NCBI GenBank assembly: GCA_030652805.1
Contig: JAUSPT010000054.1
Location: 1 to 64,000, forward strand
Direction of reading: 5' to 3'
DNA length: 64,000 bases
Source: a bacterium
GTDB lineage: Bacteria; JAHJDO01
In this document: positions 22,549 through 47,559 of the stretch, one piece after another
Position numbering within the stretch: position 1 is the stretch's first letter
Layout: every line of letters starts with the position of its first letter
Translations under genes and position numbers: made by a program
Notes under the pieces: model-generated
Database searches by the model: none
The model's input: the letters and a program-made list of their open reading frames with translations, nothing else
What the model was told of the DNA's origin: nothing

Positions 22549-23928
22549 CTACTTAGATTTACTCTGCAGATATTTCTCTATATATTCTGGTCTTATTCTC
22601 TTTAGTTCTGATTTTGGCAGCATTGAGAGGAGTTCCCATCCCAGGTCAAGTGTTTGGTCTATGGTTCTATTCTCGTCGTATCCCTGACCAACATAGCGTT
22701 TTTCAAACTCATCTGAAAACTTAAAATATAATTTATCTATATCGCTCAAAGCGGATTCTCCAAGAATAATTGCAAGTTCCTGCGCTTCTTTGCCGCTTGC
22801 ATAAGCAGCGAAAAGCTGATTGAAAACATCGGCATGGTCCTCTCTGGTTTTCCCTTTGCCAATCCCTTTATCCTTCAATCTTGAAAGTGACGGAAGAACG
22901 TCAATAGGAGGAGATATCCCCTTTTTATGAAGACTTCTATTCAGTATAATTTGCCCCTCTGTAATATAACCTGTCAAATCCGGTATAGGATGTGTTTTAT
23001 CATCGTCAGGCATGGTCAGGATAGGAATCTGAGTAATGGATCCTTTTTTATTTTTAATTCTACCTGCCCTTTCATAAATTGAAGCAAGATCAGTATACAT
23101 ATAACCAGGATATCCTCTTCTGCCGGGAACTTCTTTCCTGGCGGCAGATACAGAACGTAATGCTTCGCAATAATTGGTCATATCCGTTAATATGACCAAT
23201 ACATGCATACCTCTCTCAAATGCCAGATATTCTGCTGCCGTTAGTGCAACACGCGGAGTAGCAATTCTCTCAATAGCAGGGTCATCAGCAAGGTTTATGA
23301 ACAAGACTGTTCGCTCTATAGCTCCTGTTCTTCTAAAATCCGAAATAAAGAAATCTGCTTCTTCAAAGGTTATGCCAATAGCAGCAAAAACAACAGCGAA
23401 TTTTTCCTCTTTGCCAACAACCTTTGCCTGTCTTGCAATCTGAGCGGCAACATGGGAATGCGGAAGTCCAGAGCCGGAAAAAATAGGTAATTTCTGTCCT
23501 CTGACCAGAGTGTTCAGGCCGTCTATTGCAGATATCCCTGTTTGAATAAACTCAGACGGATAATCACGCGCATATGGATTGATAGGGTTGCCGTTTATAT
23601 CCAGATATTTCTCAGGAATTATTTCCGGGCCATCATCCATTGGTTTGCCCAGCCCGTCAAAGACCCTGCCCATCAAATCCTCTGAAACAGGAAGCTCTAT
23701 TCCTTTACCCAAAAATTTCACTCTGGTTTTAGCTATATCTATTCCACTTGTCCCCTCAAATACCTGTATAAGAGCCTTATCAGTGGAAATTTCCAAAACC
23801 TTCCCCTGTCTCACTTCTCCACTTGGCAAGCCAATTTCTATTAGCTCATCATATTTCACCCCGCTTATATCCTCTACAAGAATAAGCGGGCCAACTATCT
23901 CTCTAACAGTCAAATATTCTTTTTGCAT
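22549..23928 (-). CDS. atpB: V/A-type ATPase subunit B (non-catalytic)
   Basis: The 459-residue protein is the regulatory B subunit of the soluble V1/A1 head. It starts [30 protein letters not shown] and has the diagnostic [21 protein letters not shown]. The P-loop is replaced there, as in all B subunits. [19 protein letters not shown] and [14 protein letters not shown] follow. It is the last gene of the minus-strand ATPase operon, separated from subunit A by a DUF3592 gene and a toxin-antitoxin pair. No subunit D gene follows; the convergent M24 gene ends 19 bp away. Confidence 0.95.
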
Positions 23929-23943
23929 TTATACCGTGCCTTA

Positions 23944-24282
23944 TTAGCTATTATCGCAAACAATCCTCTCAATATATGGCCTTATCTCAGGTATCCGTTT
24001 TTTAATGGTGCTCCATACTAGCTCATAGTCAATTCCGAAATAAAAATGAATCAATCTATCTCTCATGCCTGCCATCTCTTTCCATGGGACTTCAGGATAT
24101 TTTTGCCGAACATCGTTTGGAACACCTTTAGCGGCTTCTCCTATCACCTCCAGTTTTCTAAAAACTGCACTGCTCGTTTTGTCATCCGCTATGAATTCTT
24201 CAAATGTCATATTGCCAACGAATTCAGTAATGTCCTCCAACGCCTTTAATATATCCTTCAGATATAATTCGATTTTTCTCAT
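23944..24282 (-). CDS. hepT: HepT-like ribonuclease toxin (DUF86)
   Basis: The 112-residue all-helical HEPN protein has the RX4HXY motif as RDRLIHFY (Arg74, His79, Tyr81). AVFRKLEVIGEAAKGV upstream is also typical of DUF86. HEPN toxins of this family cleave RNA and are silenced by the MntA nucleotidyltransferase, which AMPylates the motif tyrosine. The ATG overlaps the antitoxin stop (ATGA), with AAGGAGG in front. It lies inside the V/A-ATPase operon, between subunits A and B. Confidence 0.9.
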   Translation of the reverse strand: MRKIELYLKDILKALEDITEFVGNMTFEEFIADDKTSSAVFRKLEVIGEAAKGVPNDVRQKYPEVPWKEMAGMRDRLIHFYFGIDYELVWSTIKKRIPEIRPYIERIVCDNS

Positions 24283-24578
24283 ATTGCTATCGCCTCCTTT
24301 TCTACAATGCCCCGTAATTCTTCCCTTAGTCCATTTTTGGAGACAACGTCTACTTTATGCTGTAGATTGTGTTCCAAGTAATCAGCTAGTCCCATCAAGT
24401 CAAATAAATCAGCGCCTTTTTTAAAGTCTACTAAAACATCTATATCGCTGTCTATCCGATTTTCTCCTCTTGCAACTGAGCCAAACAATAAAATTGAATT
24501 TGCTTTGAATCTTTTCTTGATATTTGGGAACAGCATGTTTAACTGCTTCACAACTTCATTTCTGTTGACCTGTCGCAT
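24279..24578 (-). CDS. mntA: MntA-like nucleotidyltransferase antitoxin
   Basis: The 99-residue minimal nucleotidyltransferase has the GSX10DXD signature: FGSVARGENRIDSDIDVLVDF, plus the third acidic position in HKVDVVS. By analogy with the Shewanella MntA-HepT pair it should inactivate HepT by adding AMP to a tyrosine. A GGAGGG ribosome-binding site precedes the ATG. The gene is transcribed in the same direction as the ATPase genes that flank it. Confidence 0.9.
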   Translation of the reverse strand: MRQVNRNEVVKQLNMLFPNIKKRFKANSILLFGSVARGENRIDSDIDVLVDFKKGADLFDLMGLADYLEHNLQHKVDVVSKNGLREELRGIVEKEAIAI

Positions 24579-24678
24579 CGTCTACCCTCCAATCAAATTA
24601 CTTAATTTTACCTTATCCTAATTTCCGTTCTTGCTTATGCCACATCTTCTTCCTATTTGCAAATAGTTATTCTGTTAA

Positions 24679-24706
24679 GTCATTGCGAGCTAGCGAAGCA
24701 ATCTCG
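24679..24706. repeat. Dispersed ATTGC...GCAAT palindromic repeat, copy 1
   Basis: The sequence GTCATTGCGAG-CTAGCGAAGCAATCTCG contains the inverted pair ATTGC/GCAAT with a GCTAGC core. It is in the spacer before mntA. A second copy lies at 47560-47589, inside a coding frame. Similar palindromes are widespread in bacterial genomes. Confidence 0.75.
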
Positions 24707-24718
24707 TTTCATCTAATT

Positions 24719-25210
24719 TTATATTCTTTTCACTTCTTCTCTTTTTTTATCTTTCCACCCATCGTTTATGAGAAAGATGCCAGGTATAAGAAAAAGGCCA
24801 TATACGAACAGTCCCAGACAAAACTCTCTAAAAAACCATTCGATAAAAGACTGAGCTCCATTTCCCTTTAATCTACTAATAGCAGGATATTTGGGGAAAT
24901 ACTCAATTTCGACAGGATAAGGCTTTTCAAGAGATTCAAGTGTAGGTTTCAGCTTACCAGAACGAATGTATCGCTTTTTGAAATATTGTCCATCGATATT
25001 ATATTCGTATTGAACACTATAGGAAGCATGAGAACCTGATTCGTTGTGTTCATAATCTTGATCTGTTTGCACAATATGACCTTTTGTTACTTTCCCCCAC
25101 TTTAGTAACATTAGGCCTGTGACAGGGTTGCCAATGAGATAATGCGCAAACAACACAACTATTAATATTGCGCCAATACCACACAAAATAGTCTTTTGAT
25201 AGTTTTGCAT
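24719..25210 (-). CDS. DUF3592-type membrane protein
   Basis: The 163-residue protein has an N-terminal transmembrane helix (TILCGIGAILIVVLFAHYLIG) and a second near the C-terminus (LGLFVYGLFLIPGIFLIN). Between them is an extracytoplasmic beta domain (VKTGHIVQ-type start, YSVQYEYNIDGQYFKKRY, YPVEIEYFPKYPAISRL). This layout matches DUF3592 proteins, whose function is unknown. A ribosome-binding site (AAAAGG) lies in the nine-base gap after atpA. It is not a known ATPase part and looks like an insertion into the operon together with the toxin-antitoxin pair. Confidence 0.7.
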   Translation of the reverse strand: MQNYQKTILCGIGAILIVVLFAHYLIGNPVTGLMLLKWGKVTKGHIVQTDQDYEHNESGSHASYSVQYEYNIDGQYFKKRYIRSGKLKPTLESLEKPYPVEIEYFPKYPAISRLKGNGAQSFIEWFFREFCLGLFVYGLFLIPGIFLINDGWKDKKREEVKRI

Positions 25211-25219
25211 GAATCCTTT

Positions 25220-26980
25220 TTACTTCTTACTCTCCACTGTAAGCTGACTTATCTCTTCTTCTACTTTTTTCTCCAATTCGGAGAATTTATCAAGTTCTTT
25301 TTCATGAATAAACCGCATTCGCGATATATCTTCTCTGATTTTCAGATTGGTCAGCGATTCTATAGGTATATTTTCGCCCAATGACTGAATGCATTTTTCA
25401 TGAAGCATCATAATTAGTTTCAGCATGCGATATTGCTTCTTAAGCGATGTATAAGTATCTATTTCATGAAATGCGTTTTGATGTAGGAAGTCTTCTCTTA
25501 TAGACTTTGCAGTCTCAAGAATAAGGCGGTCAGAAACAGAAAGAGTATCCAGCCCGACAAGCCGTACGATTTCCTGAAGATCAGTTTCCTGCTGGAGAAG
25601 TTTCATGCCTTCCTGTCGCATTCTCATCCAGTCTTCACCTAAATTTTCTTTCAGGAAGTCATGAATATTATCAAGGTATAAAGAATAACTATTGATCCAG
25701 CTTATTGCAGGGAAATGACGCCTGTATGCCAGTTTATCTTCCAGTGCCCAAAAGACTTTAACAACCTTCAACGTTCCCTGAACAACCGGGTCAGAAAGAT
25801 CGCCTCCCGGAGGTGATACAGCGCCGATTATGCTTAATGTGCCTTCTCTGGAATCTGCGCCTTTACATATTACTCTGCCTGCCCGTTCGTAGAATTCAGC
25901 AAGTTTTGCAGGAAGATATGCCGGGTAACCCTCTTCACCGGGCATTTCTTCAAGTCTGCCTGACATTTCTCTTAATGCCTCTGCCCATCTGGAGGTAGAG
26001 TCAGCCATTACCGCAACATTATATCCCATATCGCGGTAATATTCAGCTATTGTTACTCCTGTATATATAGAAGCTTCTCTTGCGGCAACAGGCATGTTGG
26101 ATGTGTTGGCTATAAGCACAGTTCTTTTCATTAACGGGTTACCCGTCTTTGGGTCCTTAAGCTGCGGAAATTCCATTAATACGTCTGTCATTTCATTGCC
26201 GCGTTCTCCGCATCCTATATAGACAATAATCTCTGCATCCGACCATTTTGCAAGTTGATGCTGAACGACAGTTTTTCCGCTGCCAAAAGGACCTGGAATA
26301 CAAGCGGTGCCTCCTCTAGCAATCGGGAAAAATGTGTCAATTACTCGCTGGCCTGTAATAAGAGGAGTCTCAGGCACTAACTTCTTCTGATATGGTCTTG
26401 GAATTCTTACAGGCCAGTATTGCAGCATTGTAATATTCTTAGACCCTTTGTCGGTTTTAATTACTGCAACTGTATCTTCAACAGCGAACTTACCCTCTGT
26501 AATTTTTTCTATTTTGCCTTCTACTCCTGAAGGCACCATGATTTTATGGATAACTGTGTTTGTTTCCTGAACTGTTCCAATTGCATCTCCATAACGCACA
26601 GTGTCTCCTGCCTTTGCAGACGGCACAAAATGCCATTTTTTATTGCGGTCAATTCCCGGGGCAGAAACACCTCTGGTAATGTATTCTCCTGTTTTATCCA
26701 TCAATATATCCAAAGGACGTTGGATACCGTCATATATTGATTCTATTAATCCAGGTCCCAACTCTACACTTAGAGGTCTGCCTGTTGATATAACGGGTTC
26801 ATCCGGGCCAATTCCTGCTGTTTCTTCATATACCTGAATGGAGGCTACGTCGCCTCTTAATTCTATTATCTCTCCGATGAGCTTTTTATTCCCTACTTTT
26901 ACCAGGTCAAACATTCTTGCATCTTGCATACAGTCTGCTAAGACCAGAGGTCCTGAAACTTTTATTATCTTGCCATTCAT
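25220..26980 (-). CDS. atpA: V/A-type ATPase subunit A (catalytic)
   Basis: The 586-residue catalytic subunit has the P-loop [11 protein letters not shown]. It also has [15 protein letters not shown] and the A-subunit non-homologous region before it ([19 protein letters not shown]). It hydrolyses or makes ATP in the rotating head. The start ATG overlaps the subunit F stop by four bases. The gene order F-A is normal for V/A operons, but A is not followed directly by B. Confidence 0.96.
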
Positions 26981-27285
26981 ATAATATCCATTCCTATTGC
27001 TTCTTTTACAGTATCTTTAATTATAGCTGCTGCTACTCCCTTTGAACCTTTATGGTCAGGAATAACAGTAATACTGGTTTGACTCTTTATGTTTATCTCA
27101 GAAATTATATGTATAATCTGGCCTGCCAGCTCTTCTGTGATGAAAACAACATCAGTGTTTAGCGAAACCAGTTCATTAAGTTTTAACACGGCATCTTCTG
27201 AGTTATCTATTGGAAAAGCACTTATGCCAAATGCAGAGAACACAGAAACTATATCTGATTTACCAATTACCGCAATGCTAGACAT
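26977..27285 (-). CDS. atpF: V/A-type ATPase subunit F
   Basis: The 102-residue central-stalk subunit begins [21 protein letters not shown] and contains [13 protein letters not shown], the usual F pattern. A start at 27330 in the same frame is possible. It would run far into the subunit C gene and add residues not found in the family, so the ATG at 27285 is preferred. It overlaps subunit C by eight bases and subunit A by four. Confidence 0.9.
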
Positions 27286-28306
27286 ACGCGCACCCCAAAT
27301 TTTGGCTGATTTGTCCAGCTGAAAGCCCATTGTTTTTCCCGATTAAAATAGCTCTCAGATTTTTAAGCTCAATTTCTTTAATTACCAGGTATCGTATGAG
27401 AACTGACACACTAGCAACCAGGAATTTTACAATATCTACAAATTCAACTAAAAATTCGTTGCATAACTGCTCAAATTTCCAGAAAGAATTATATCTTTGG
27501 AAATGTTCAACTCCTGGTTTAAGAATTTTATTATAATCTGAGAACTGAAAGGATTTTACTATTCTTTCCAATTCCATGTTGTAAGAGTTTAGCATGACAG
27601 ATTTGTCAATAAAACCTCCTTCTGCAATGTATCCCCTAACCCTCTCTGGATCATAGCTCATAACCTTAGTTCTAAGGATCACCTTAAGATTATATATATC
27701 AATCAATACGGAAAAGAAATCCCTTAGAAATATTTGCCCACTATCTTTCATGTAACAATATCCTGTTTCCAGCCATAGTTTATCCAGGAGAATTTCTGCT
27801 TCCTGAAGGTTTCCTTGTTGTACTTCCTCGAGCCATATTGTTTTTATTTTGTTCCTTAGAGAGTCTGGAAATACATAAAAAATTTCTTCTTTTATTGAAT
27901 CCTCAAGATTCTCAGTATCTATTACGCTTCTATAGAGCAGAGCATGGTTAATATCCTCAGAATTTTTCCCAGCCTTTATCAGGAATTTCAGGTTTTGCAT
28001 ATCATATCTGAATAGATATAAATTAGTTACTTCATCATCATGAGACAGTTTTTTTATCTCACCTATAGTGTTTGACATTTCGTCAAATATTAGATTTTCT
28101 AAATCTTCAGGCCTTTCTACAGAGGATATATTATCTGAATAATTTCTCTCGCTTAATATGGAAACCAGTTCCTGAAAGCCATTACATTCGATAAGTTGGG
28201 TAAGAGTTGCCTTACTAATGAGTTTTCTCTCATAGACCCTCAGCTTACCTATAGCAAACAAATATTCGGGATTATATTCTACGTATGAGGCTTTATCAAT
28301 AAACAT
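27278..28306 (-). CDS. atpC: V/A-type ATPase subunit C
   Basis: The 342-residue, mostly helical protein matches the funnel-shaped subunit C/d that links the central stalk to the membrane ring. It starts YVEYNPEYLFAIGKLRVYERKLISKATL and includes YDMQNLKFLIKAGK and FFSVLIDIYNLKVILRTKV. It shares one base with the subunit E stop and sits in the standard E-C-F order. Confidence 0.9.
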   Translation of the reverse strand: MFIDKASYVEYNPEYLFAIGKLRVYERKLISKATLTQLIECNGFQELVSILSERNYSDNISSVERPEDLENLIFDEMSNTIGEIKKLSHDDEVTNLYLFRYDMQNLKFLIKAGKNSEDINHALLYRSVIDTENLEDSIKEEIFYVFPDSLRNKIKTIWLEEVQQGNLQEAEILLDKLWLETGYCYMKDSGQIFLRDFFSVLIDIYNLKVILRTKVMSYDPERVRGYIAEGGFIDKSVMLNSYNMELERIVKSFQFSDYNKILKPGVEHFQRYNSFWKFEQLCNEFLVEFVDIVKFLVASVSVLIRYLVIKEIELKNLRAILIGKNNGLSAGQISQNLGCAYV

Positions 28307-28911
28307 TATACCTGCTGTCCAAAGAGAACGTTGTTTATTTTTATTAGTAATTTATGCCTTAGTATCTTAATTAATTGTTCTAAGGATGCGTTGATCTCTT
28401 GTTTCTCTTTTATTAGAAAGAAACCGGACTTTAGAGGTCTTGAAGTATTTGAGATACAAAGTTTCCCCTTTTTTCCTTTTGAAACCAGTTTCTTATTTAT
28501 TTGATTTATAAAATCACTATTGAACTTTTCTCTGTGCAGATCTCCAAATATCACCTTTTCATCTCCGATTTCTGTAAGTTTCAGCAACTTCAGCTCTATT
28601 AGTCCTAAATAATCTGATGGAGGTAACTTAAGTGTTTTACCGTATGCTTTTTCGAAACATAGTGAGATTATGTCCTGCCTAACTTTCAATGACTTAATCC
28701 TGCACTCAAGATTCGCAGAAACAACAGCCTTATTCATATTTTTTTCTGCCTGCTCTTTTGCATGTCTCAGAATACTTTCTCTCTCTTTTTTAGCCTGATT
28801 TTTTGCTTGTTCCTGTATCTGTTTAATCTCCATGGCTGCTCTATCTCTTAGCACCTTGCACTCCCCTTCAGCATCAGCTTCTATTTTTTTTATAATATTT
28901 TCTATAGACAT
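28306..28911 (-). CDS. atpE: V/A-type ATPase subunit E
   Basis: The 201-residue peripheral-stalk subunit has a long N-terminal coiled coil (IIKKIEADAEGECKVLRDRAAME, EQAKNQAKKERESIL). A globular C-terminal part follows that binds the head. Sequence conservation is low, as usual for E, and the assignment rests on this shape plus its place between K and C. Confidence 0.85.
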   Translation of the reverse strand: MSIENIIKKIEADAEGECKVLRDRAAMEIKQIQEQAKNQAKKERESILRHAKEQAEKNMNKAVVSANLECRIKSLKVRQDIISLCFEKAYGKTLKLPPSDYLGLIELKLLKLTEIGDEKVIFGDLHREKFNSDFINQINKKLVSKGKKGKLCISNTSRPLKSGFFLIKEKQEINASLEQLIKILRHKLLIKINNVLFGQQV

Positions 28912-28927
28912 AGTATAACCCTAATTT

Positions 28928-29410
<483 letters not shown>

Positions 29411-29419
29411 TCAATCTCC

Positions 29420-31369
29420 TTATTTAATTATTGTATATTTTGTGTTTTTGCTAAGAGGCTCAAACTGCTCGCCTCCTGAAGCAAAGAAATATGGAAAGAA
29501 TTCAACATACTGCAGCCTGCTTGAATGAACATACGCGCCGAGTGAATTAACTAGAAAATTCAACGAATGCAGCACGAAAAGTATAATAACCGCCAGAAGT
29601 ATGTTTACGCCTGGAATGGAAATCCCCAAAGCAATTCCTGCTAACTTGTTTGCAACCAGTGCAATAACCGCAGTAGACAATCCCAGAGCCATTAATCTTG
29701 AATACGAAAGTATATTCCCAACAATGTCTTTACCCAGCCATAAACAGCCTATTACTATTCCGGAAAGAACTCTCGCAATTGGATTTTTTTGATCTCTTCC
29801 AAAGAAGAGAATTATAACTGCAGCTCCTGCTAAAGCTGGCCATTTTCCCATGCTCTTACCCATTGTTAATAATAGAAGTGATGGCATAATAATGAGCCAT
29901 GGTATCTGATCAAATATTGCTCCGGCAAAATCTCTACTTTTAATACAATTGTATACTTTAATCAATATTCCCCAGTACAGTTGAATAAATCCCAAAGCCA
30001 AGGCTATTATAAAAAACTGCATTGAATCTTTTAGAGGACTAAATATGATGACTTTTTGCAAAAATACTGGAAGTTTTTCTGCCTCTATACCAAACCAGCC
30101 TCCTGTAAATACCCCGCAGATAATTGTTGATATTCCAACATATAATATAAGCTTGAAAAATCTTTTAATACCTGGCGTATGAGCTATTGTTGATAAGCCT
30201 AAAAGAGCAATAGTGCTTAAAATAAGACCATACCCGGCGTCTGTAAGACACAATCCAAAAAATAAGAAGAAGAATGGAGCCATAAAAGGAGTAGGATCAA
30301 CAGATGTATTTGCCGGAGTTCCATATAAATCAGTTACCGTCTCAAATGGCTTAAATATAGGCTTGTTTTCAAGATATATGGGTGCTTTCTCTCCCTTAGC
30401 AGGATCTACTTTAATTACACTGGATGCTGGAAATCTTGTTGAAATTTGTTTTTTAAATCTTCTAACGTTGTCTTTTTTTAGCCAGCCTCCGAGCAAGAAA
30501 GTTTCATTTGATTCTAAAAATTTATTCTGCAGGGATGTTCTATAGTTTAAGCTTAAACTATAATCATAGGCAACCTTTAGTTTGCCTGAATAACGCGTAA
30601 GCTCAGTCGCGTCTTTATTGAGGGTTTTATGTTTTTCCTTGAGCCTTTTCAACTGATTGGATATTCTCTCAAGGTTTGAATCTACTGTTCCCTTAAGATT
30701 GTATAAGTCTACTCTTTCAACTCCTAGTTTCTTGCATTCGCTAAGTATTTCTTTTTCCTGATCGCGAAAATATATGGCTACAATATTCTCTGTTTCCTGA
30801 TAGTCTGAAGCTTTTTCACAGTGTAAAAGAGGAAACTTTTTACCCATATAGTTCTTGAAATAAGCAAATTTGCCAGTAGTTCCAGTTAAAAATGCATACT
30901 TGATAGTCTCCGTTATATTGAATGTATCTAAAGAGAGGCTAAGGGGTTTCCACGGGATGAGCTGATTATATTGAGCATGAAGCACCCCAATTTCCCTTTC
31001 TGTTTTATGCAATTCCTGCTGAATGAGCATACAAGTTTTATGTATCTCTCTATAATCAAATCCTAGAGCTGTTTTTTCAAATTCGTCAGATGATAGCAGG
31101 ATTTTGCTACCCATCAAACCGGAGATAAAACCTGTTTTTTGCCCAAAACGCGACAAAAAATCTATAGTGGATTGAAGTTCAGAAAGCTCTTTTTTGAATT
31201 GATCCAGGTTTGCCTGAACTGGCTTTAGAAAGTCTTTATGTTTTTTAGCCTGTGCTTGCTCAATATGATTAATCTGGATGATATTAAGTGATTCCAAGAA
31301 AGAGACAACATCCGGACATTGAGATTTAACTCCAATTATATTGACCTTTTGCATTTGAGAGATAGCCAT
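29420..31369 (-). CDS. atpI: V/A-type ATPase subunit I (stator a-type)
   Basis: The 649-residue protein has a cytoplasmic N-terminal half with coiled coils (QANLDQFKKELSELQSTIDF, SNQLKRLKEKHKTLNKD). A C-terminal half of about seven or eight membrane helices follows, from FMAPFFFLFFGLCLTDAGYG onward. The conserved SYSRLMALGLSTAVIA and HSLNFLVNSLGAYVHSSRLQYVEFF contain the key Arg and the ring-contact helices. It forms the ion path beside the K ring and shares one base with the H gene stop. Confidence 0.93.
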   Translation of the reverse strand: MAISQMQKVNIIGVKSQCPDVVSFLESLNIIQINHIEQAQAKKHKDFLKPVQANLDQFKKELSELQSTIDFLSRFGQKTGFISGLMGSKILLSSDEFEKTALGFDYREIHKTCMLIQQELHKTEREIGVLHAQYNQLIPWKPLSLSLDTFNITETIKYAFLTGTTGKFAYFKNYMGKKFPLLHCEKASDYQETENIVAIYFRDQEKEILSECKKLGVERVDLYNLKGTVDSNLERISNQLKRLKEKHKTLNKDATELTRYSGKLKVAYDYSLSLNYRTSLQNKFLESNETFLLGGWLKKDNVRRFKKQISTRFPASSVIKVDPAKGEKAPIYLENKPIFKPFETVTDLYGTPANTSVDPTPFMAPFFFLFFGLCLTDAGYGLILSTIALLGLSTIAHTPGIKRFFKLILYVGISTIICGVFTGGWFGIEAEKLPVFLQKVIIFSPLKDSMQFFIIALALGFIQLYWGILIKVYNCIKSRDFAGAIFDQIPWLIIMPSLLLLTMGKSMGKWPALAGAAVIILFFGRDQKNPIARVLSGIVIGCLWLGKDIVGNILSYSRLMALGLSTAVIALVANKLAGIALGISIPGVNILLAVIILFVLHSLNFLVNSLGAYVHSSRLQYVEFFPYFFASGGEQFEPLSKNTKYTIIK

Positions 31370-31680
31370 TAATGTCTTAACTCCTCTAGGATAGTTTTTA
31401 TAGCACTCTCTTGTTTGAGTTGAGCCTTTTGCTCAAGCGCAGACAGATATTCGGCATTATTTTCGCGTATTTTTTTGACTTGCGCTTTAGCCTGTATATC
31501 AGCTTTTGCCAGTATCTTTTTCGCTTCTTCCCTTGCATTTGCGGCAGCCTTTTCAATATAAGCTGATGCATACTTTTGAGCATTTTTTAGATTGGTACTT
31601 GTTAGGTGTTTTCCTTTTTCTATAAGCTTTGATGCTTTTTGCTCAGCTTGTTTTACCCTCTCTATTACTTCTTCTATCAA
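31369..31680 (-). CDS. V/A-type ATPase subunit H/G (peripheral stalk coiled coil)
   Basis: The 103-residue, almost wholly coiled-coil protein (IEEVIERVKQAEQKASKLIEKGK, AREEAKKILAKADIQAKAQ) begins the ATPase operon, where the G/H stalk subunit is usually found. The start is a TTG with GGGAGAT five bases upstream. Coiled coils align poorly, so the call depends mainly on position and size. Confidence 0.8.
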   Translation of the reverse strand: MIEEVIERVKQAEQKASKLIEKGKHLTSTNLKNAQKYASAYIEKAAANAREEAKKILAKADIQAKAQVKKIRENNAEYLSALEQKAQLKQESAIKTILEELRH

Positions 31681-31748: not shown

Positions 31749-31765
31749 GCGCATTTCGGCAAAAG

Positions 31766-31817
31766 AATAGGGCCTACAAAATCCAGAATATTTTACCTAG
31801 AAAATATAAGCCCTATT
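31766..31817. repeat. Nested inverted repeat between the ATPase operon and the exported-protein gene
   Basis: The outer arms AATAGGGC (31766-31773) and GCCCTATT (31810-31817) are perfect inverted copies. Inside is a second hairpin, ATATTTT (31788-31794) and AAAATAT (31801-31807) with a 6-nt loop. It begins just after the stop of the minus-strand gene at 31826 and may end its transcript, separating it from the ATPase promoter. Confidence 0.6.
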
Positions 31818-31825
31818 AGAGAAAG

Positions 31826-32299
31826 CTATTTCTTCTTTTTTAGTTTAACCTTGCCTGCTACCTTTTTAGTCTTAGCTGCTATCTTATTCATGAATGTTTC
31901 CGGCCCTTCGCTAGCAAGTTCCTTCAGCAGTTTTCCTCTTTTACCCAAAGATCCTGCAGTAGCTTTAACCTTCTTGCATCCCTTTATTGCGTTTTCGCAT
32001 TTGATTATAGATGCTTTAGCATCAGCTATTACAGCTTCATCTTTATCAATTTCAGCAATAGCTATTTTCTTCTTGCATTCCTTAATACATGCTTTCGCCT
32101 CGTCTATAATGGGCTTAACCTCTGAGGTCATCTTACCGCTTAAGTCTTCCATATCTACGCCGCAGGATGTTAGAGCTTTACAGCAGTCATCCAATATCTT
32201 ATCGCCTTTAGCTTCCAATTCTCCAGCAAAGACCACTGATGTAGATATCATAAGACCAATAGCTAATACAATTGTAAGAACTGTACCTGTTAATTTCAT
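31826..32299 (-). CDS. Small exported Cys-rich helical protein of unknown function
   Basis: The 157-residue product has a clear Sec signal peptide (MKLTGTVLTIVLAIGLMISTS, cleavage likely after VVFA). The mature part is a helical, Lys/Glu-rich chain with seven cysteines, including a CC pair, C-x3-C (ACIKEC) and C-x6-C, and ends in a polylysine tail. I do not recognise a family. The ATG at 32299 is chosen over a GTG at 32308 because it gives an ideal signal peptide and spacing to AAAGGGGG. The promoter is a perfect consensus, so the gene should be strongly expressed. Cysteine spacing could support disulfides or metal binding; no CxxCH haem motif is present. Confidence 0.7.
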   Translation of the reverse strand: MKLTGTVLTIVLAIGLMISTSVVFAGELEAKGDKILDDCCKALTSCGVDMEDLSGKMTSEVKPIIDEAKACIKECKKKIAIAEIDKDEAVIADAKASIIKCENAIKGCKKVKATAGSLGKRGKLLKELASEGPETFMNKIAAKTKKVAGKVKLKKKK

Positions 32300-32345
32300 A
32301 TGTCTCACCCCCTTTCCTTAATAGCGTTCTTGTAACTCATCGGTG

Positions 32346-32374
32346 ATTATAGGGCTCGTCAGATACTTTGTCAA
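32346..32374 (-). promoter_or_regulatory. Perfect consensus sigma70 promoter
   Basis: On the minus strand, TTGACA (32374-32369), a 17-bp spacer and TATAAT (32351-32346) match the consensus at all twelve positions. It drives the exported Cys-rich gene, leaving a leader of about 40 bases with a strong ribosome-binding site. Confidence 0.85.
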
Positions 32375-46897: not shown

Positions 46898-46925
46898 GGG
46901 AAATAGAAAATGGAAAAAGGGAAAT
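46898..46925. repeat. GGGAAAT-type heptamer, 4 degenerate copies
   Basis: The units GGGAAAT, AGAAAAT, GGAAAAA and GGGAAAT run across the start codon of the four-helix-bundle gene. They supply its ATG and first codons (MEKGKWG). Confidence 0.6.
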
Positions 46926-47326
46926 GGGGTCAGATTAGGCATTTTAGTGATATAGAAGCATGGAAGATAGGGAGAGAAGTCAGAAAGAGTGTTTATGCAT
47001 TTATTAAAACATTACCTGATGGAGAGAAATATAATCTTAGTTCTCAAATGAGGAGAGCAGCAGTCTCTATCACAGCTAACATTGCTGAAGGATATGGACG
47101 GTATCACTATCAAGAAAATATTCAATTCTGTCGGCAAAGTAGGGGTTCTATATATGAAATGCAAGACCATTTGATCACTTGTTTAGATGAGGGATATATT
47201 GCTAAAGAGGATTATGAGAAAATTTATTCTTTATACGAAAAAGCTACTAAGGCAATTAATGGGTATATTAGACTGCTTAAAAGGCAGCAAGCAGAGAATA
47301 AAGAGAGAATAGCAAATGGTAAATAG
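46910..47326 (+). CDS. Four-helix-bundle protein (23S rRNA intervening-sequence / S23 type)
   Basis: The 138-residue helical protein has the family pattern [49 protein letters not shown] and [29 protein letters not shown]. Such proteins are encoded in rRNA intervening sequences, and often stand alone near repeats. The biochemical role is unknown, although some relatives associate with diversity-generating retroelements. No reverse transcriptase is seen here. The first residues derive from the heptamer tract. A remnant relative lies at 61139. Confidence 0.9.
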
Positions 47327-47368
47327 AATTCCCAAATCCCAATTCCCAGTTCCCAATTCCCAATCCCC
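47327..47368. repeat. AATTCCC-type heptamers, 6 copies, in the broken GT2 gene
   Basis: Six consecutive 7-bp units (AATTCCC, AAATCCC, AATTCCC, AGTTCCC, AATTCCC, AATCCCC) form the 5' part of the frame and encode [13 protein letters not shown]. Confidence 0.75.
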
Positions 47369-47438
47369 ATTGGTAAGCATAATAATCACAACTAAAAACG
47401 AAGAGAAAAACATAGAAAATTGCTTAGAATCAATCCTG

Positions 47439-47494
47439 AATTCCCGTTTTCCAATTCCCAGTTCCCAATTCCCAGTCTCCAATTCCCAATCCTC
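47439..47494. repeat. AATTCCC-type heptamers, 8 copies, in the broken GT2 gene
   Basis: Eight degenerate 7-bp units interrupt the glycosyltransferase fold between the first helix and the [12 protein letters not shown] strand. They add about 18 residues rich in Ser, Pro and Gln. Confidence 0.75.
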
Positions 47495-47559
47495 AATCGA
47501 GATAATCGTAGTGGACAACAACTCAACTGATAAAACCGTTGAGATTGTCAAATCCTATT

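Follow-up and report, generated by a model that had tools for sequence, protein, structure and literature searches.

The minus strand of the window, by which we mean the whole stretch of 64,000 nucleotides analysed here, carries a gene for a protein of 157 residues that, judged from its sequence, is an orphan, lineage-specific exported protein, so far known only from one genus of uncultured bacteria. Promoter, ribosome-binding site, gene and terminator together are a predicted stand-alone one-gene transcription unit. The product is probably a periplasmic thiol- or metal-holding protein, a function that we infer. We favour reduced thiols that would bind a soft metal, with a disulfide-stapled helical hairpin as a close rival. 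The unit comprises the following features:

32346..32374, minus strand: sigma-70-type promoter TTGACA-N17-TATAAT, found by pattern scan and kept in three other species
32300..32320, minus strand: ribosome-binding region TAAGGAAAGGGGGTGAGACAT, read directly and conserved in five species
31826..32299, minus strand: protein-coding gene, 157 aa, with ATG start and TAG stop (31826-31828), dN/dS 0.18-0.37
32225..32299, minus strand: signal peptide recognised by eye, spanning residues 1-25, with VFA/GE as the expected cleavage site
32075..32089, minus strand: first CX3C motif, formed by C71 and C75, on modelled helix 2, from alignment and AlphaFold2
31976..32011, minus strand: second CX3C motif, formed by C101 and position 97 (Ser in the window species, Cys in the four relatives), together with C108 on modelled helix 3, from alignment and AlphaFold2
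31829..31954, minus strand: C-terminal tail rich in Lys (residues 116-157), with a net charge of about +11 calculated from the sequence
31761..31817, minus strand: intrinsic-terminator-like hairpin with a 13-bp outer stem, an internal loop and a 6-bp inner stem, followed by CTTTT, in all five species

Distribution of the gene

Exactly one copy of the gene is present in each of the five genomes of the genus, which are also all the genomes examined of the phylum, and the proteins share 75-92% identity with the window copy. A sequence search of 380 other genomes did not recover the gene. A weak match in G047, with 25% identity at E 0.005 within an open frame of 538 residues, was rejected as chance helical similarity, and a profile search at E up to 0.001 did not recover it. 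The earlier note had recognised no family. In agreement with this, searches of Pfam, NCBIfam, PHROGs, PDB sequences (single sequence and profile) and plasmids returned nothing convincing, the best Pfam match being DUF6987 with 17.1 bits, below its cut-off of 26. Viral contigs gave no match either. A search of genome contigs, which relied on short peptide patterns, yielded three loci, all from the same genus. The relatives probably come from cold seeps; three of them are MAGs designated 'bacterium isolate CSMAG', a name used in a catalogue of global cold seeps (PMC10491686).

A predicted stand-alone transcription unit

That this is a genuine gene, as had been proposed before, is borne out by purifying selection across the five species as well as by the orthologues in every genome of the genus. 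The natural start is the ATG at 32299, giving 157 residues; the mechanical list of open reading frames had placed it at a GTG at 32308. Directly before the ATG lies the strong ribosome-binding site AAGGAAAGGGGGTGA, which is nearly invariant across the five species. On the plus strand, a frame of 156 residues (31851-32321) spans the whole gene and is open in four of the five species, with a stop in G003. It was rejected as a gene and looks like a by-product, or shadow, of the Lys-rich sense codons, because differences between the species concentrate at sense third positions.

The promoter, a perfect TTGACA-N17-TATAAT at 32374-32346 on the minus strand, is likewise as first described. It is the only such match in the 64-kb window, where 0.12 would be expected by chance. 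The 2.0-Mb genome of the window species has seven in total, against one for the reversed pattern used as a control. Three of the four other species retain the -35 box as well as the 17-base spacer, with a -10 box that reads TATAAT (two species) or TATACT (one). The exception is G002, whose contig starts 170 bases upstream of the gene and differs in sequence there; its promoter has either been replaced or was lost at the assembly edge.

The unit ends in a conserved terminator-like hairpin that had been overlooked in the earlier note. Its variation among the five species is mostly one-sided and pair-preserving, without double changes, and one outer pair is broken in one species. The genes beyond it are V-ATPase genes in the window species, G001 and G002, an argG-like gene in G004 and a PTS-IIA-like gene in G003. 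Since the downstream genes differ between species, the gene is best read as a unit of its own. An operon with the V-ATPase genes was considered and rejected, as the hairpin lies in between and both G003 and G004 keep the unit with other genes downstream. A LOG-type gene is another of the neighbours.

The V/A-type ATPase cluster 3′ of the gene occupies 22549-31680 of the window on the same strand. Elsewhere in the window, a gene for a 23S rRNA intervening-sequence protein (46910-47326; PF05635, E 8.5e-33) lies among sugar-transfer genes. It directly precedes a short open frame matching glycosyltransferase family 2, inside which a 14-base repeat (AATTCCCAGTTCCC-like) forms two arrays at 47327-47509, one at the start of the frame and the other inside the domain.

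Expression level

From such a promoter, the earlier note had predicted one of the most abundant exported proteins of the cell. Good expression is indeed plausible from promoter, ribosome-binding site and codon usage: codon adaptation to ribosomal proteins is 0.714 for the gene, compared with 0.728 for the ribosomal proteins themselves and a background of 0.664, which places the gene at the 85th percentile. The predicted rank is only partly supported. Elsewhere in the same genome, perfect promoters lie in front of genes for likely regulators of the ROK and MarR types, the likely accB-accC pair and tRNA-Met (protein names assigned by eye), and one perfect consensus looks like a chance match. Because perfect promoters thus also drive likely regulators and a tRNA, the promoter alone cannot rank the protein.

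Predicted protein structure

The protein is probably exported. Its N-terminus has the layout of a signal peptide, with MK, a hydrophobic core and VFA/GE recognised by eye, and residues 19-27 (STSVVFAGE), which include the cleavage region, are invariant in the five species, in support of the original description. The mature part consists of 132 residues and is basic (pI 9.25). The protein lacks histidine. Among the most conserved parts of the five-species alignment is the block RGKLLKELAS-GPETFMNK.

With the signal peptide removed, AlphaFold2 modelled the mature part as all helical (pLDDT 78, pTM 0.53), the first sequence of the input being an eight-cysteine relative, not the window copy. With the signal peptide kept, pLDDT reached only 59. 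Helix breaks fall at residues 45-49, 86-87 and 132, and a pTM of 0.53 means that helix packing is uncertain. The Lys-rich helical mature part that had been read from the sequence agrees with the model, and the cysteines have the CC, Cx3C and Cx6C spacings described. Fold matches in the PDB were confined to generic antiparallel helical hairpins (Z about 9-11), with a Foldseek E of 0.23 at best.

Conservation and layout of the cysteines

The window copy has seven cysteines (C39, C40, C46, C71, C75, C101 and C108). In the alignment, cysteine occupies columns 39, 40, 46, 71, 75, 97, 101 and 108 with a single exception, Ser 97 of the window species, where codon 97 is TCT instead of TGT or TGC. The designation as a seven-Cys protein therefore holds for the window copy but not for the other four species, which have eight each. 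Eight is probably the ancestral number and the window copy has probably lost one cysteine (C97S). A search for homologues with conserved cysteines, proposed earlier as a check, found the seven invariant in all five species although several of their codons switch between TGC and TGT.

Of the eight cysteine positions, seven deviate from the hydrophobic face of their own helix by no more than about 70 degrees, and C40 deviates by 72. C71/C101 and C75/C97 share a mirror centre at residue 86, the position of a helix turn in the AlphaFold2 model; in an alternative pairing, 39/108 and 46/101 likewise have one mirror centre in common. In the model, this layout allows two disulfides or one four-thiolate site.

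Cellular setting

Omp85 was found in all five genomes, from which we conclude that all five bacteria have an outer membrane. Profile searches of the genome of the window species gave no DSBA or VKOR match, and no Cu-type P-ATPase match was found, absences that are no proof in a genome that is 95.6% complete. In the same genome, the gene for a thioredoxin whose N-terminus is lipoprotein-like adjoins that for a CcdA-type protein, a pair also present in G003, and DsbD_TM proteins number four in all. Missing DsbA and VKOR matches together with the thioredoxin-CcdA pair favour reduced thiols. Two loci were read by eye as zinc-type ABC transporter genes adjoining CcdA-type genes. Overall, the setting weakly tilts to reduced thiols and, if a metal is bound, to zinc over copper.

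Within the genus, Thioredoxin_4 scored above its cut-off only in G002, where the gene for this DsbA-like exported protein (L048, 913-1788) adjoins conjugation-like genes. In the genome of the window species, two paralogous sets (L044, 2682-4600; L045, 680-2637) each encode a CcdA-type membrane protein together with a TPR protein and an exported protein that contains a GCPCC motif; both adjoin genes that look like zinc-type ABC transport genes and metal regulators.

Comparison with known proteins

Small Tim chaperones and plant alpha-hairpinins are helical hairpins with twin CX3C motifs. Two CX3C motifs that face each other across a helical turn also occur here in four of the five species, one of the four cysteines being a serine in the window species. 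However, the motifs of the present protein are separated by a 21-residue spacer, further cysteines are present, the helices are longer, the protein is bacterial and no sequence relation was found.

In Csp proteins, CX3C within one helix binds Cu(I), and Csp1 is exported (PMC5171941). The predicted helical bundle with CX3C motifs inside single helices and core-facing cysteines resembles Csp1 and Csp3, features that also occur in other kinds of protein. In contrast to the 13-19 cysteines of Csp, there are seven to eight here, the signal is probably of the Sec rather than the Tat type, a Lys-rich tail is present and the genome of the window species lacks a Cu-ATPase match. No Csp-type Pfam or NCBIfam family was matched at E up to 10 (HMMER filters included), and no Pfam family scored above its cut-off.

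The top structural matches in the PDB were ESCRT-III/PspA, the seryl-tRNA synthetase arm and chemoreceptors (Z about 9-11). ESCRT-III/PspA, at a Z of about 10, is tied with unrelated hairpins. The Z values lie in the range expected of any helical bundle, and none of these matches shows a sequence relation.

Candidate functions

The best explanation of the whole, which we put forward tentatively and as far from assured, is a Sec-exported helical bundle whose reduced thiols hold a soft metal and whose Lys-rich tail lies on the envelope. The one-gene unit would make a basic protein of roughly 14 kDa that is exported by Sec to the periplasm of a diderm bacterium. There, the mature bundle is predicted to consist of a short N-terminal helix that carries CC plus one more cysteine, a hairpin of two long helices with a CX3C on each side, and the tail. 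The inward-facing cysteines may be kept reduced by the periplasmic thioredoxin-CcdA pathway and could bind a soft metal ion, either Zn2+ or Cu+, so that the protein would act as a small store or buffer based on thiolates, while the tail would tether the protein to the anionic envelope. Against a metal speak the lack of a match to any metal-binding family in the family searches, the lack of histidine, and the position of the gene away from metal transporters, its neighbours being V-ATPase, LOG-type, argG-like or PTS-IIA-like genes. Copper in particular is weakly motivated, as no Cu-type P-ATPase was matched in the genome of the window species. A bolder and unlikely reading would make these proteins a novel family of exported helical metal buffers based on thiolates, confined to one phylum-level lineage of sediment bacteria, in which the facing twin-CX3C hairpin would be a minimal metal site held reduced in the periplasm.

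Disulfide-stapled hairpins, moreover, classically show the same facing twin CX3C motifs. In a stapled protein, C71-C101 and C75-C97 would bridge the helices across the turn at residue 86, C39, C40 and C46 would staple the first helix with C108, and the cysteines would merely stabilise an envelope protein. The exact mirror pairing about the predicted turn, the common centre of the alternative pairs, the even number of cysteines in the commoner and probably ancestral form and the predicted export all suit this possible, though doubtful, explanation. It sits less well with the missing DsbA and VKOR matches, the existence of a reducing thioredoxin-CcdA pair and the C97S change, which gives the window species an odd number and leaves C75 partnerless. 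Losing C97 but keeping C75 is easier to reconcile with a metal or thiol role than with a strict disulfide pair. If the CX3C pairs instead cycled between thiol and disulfide, as an electron acceptor, buffer or oxidative-stress sensor fed by thioredoxin-CcdA, their facing arrangement and the presence of that pair in the window species and G003 would be accounted for; yet CXXC motifs and a thioredoxin-like fold are lacking and the gene does not adjoin the thioredoxin-CcdA genes, so that we regard such a redox partner as improbable. An unlikely but somewhat better candidate is a structural or coating protein whose Lys-rich tail and hairpin bind anionic envelope polymers, the cysteines being incidental or cross-linking separate molecules. 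A net charge of about +11 over the last 42 residues, the strong conservation of the RGKLLKELAS-GPETFMNK block, the single copy in every genome and a promoter, ribosome-binding site and codon usage suited to a bulk protein are in line with it, whereas the cysteines match the tail in conservation and point to the hydrophobic side, which speaks against an incidental role.

In summary, a gene common to every examined genome of a one-genus, phylum-level lineage and embedded in a strong-looking stand-alone unit likely matters to the envelope of this lineage. Were the product only a stapled structural protein, it would be one among many lineage-specific exported proteins. If, on the other hand, its reduced periplasmic thiols do bind metal, it would represent a far smaller design than the known bacterial copper stores.
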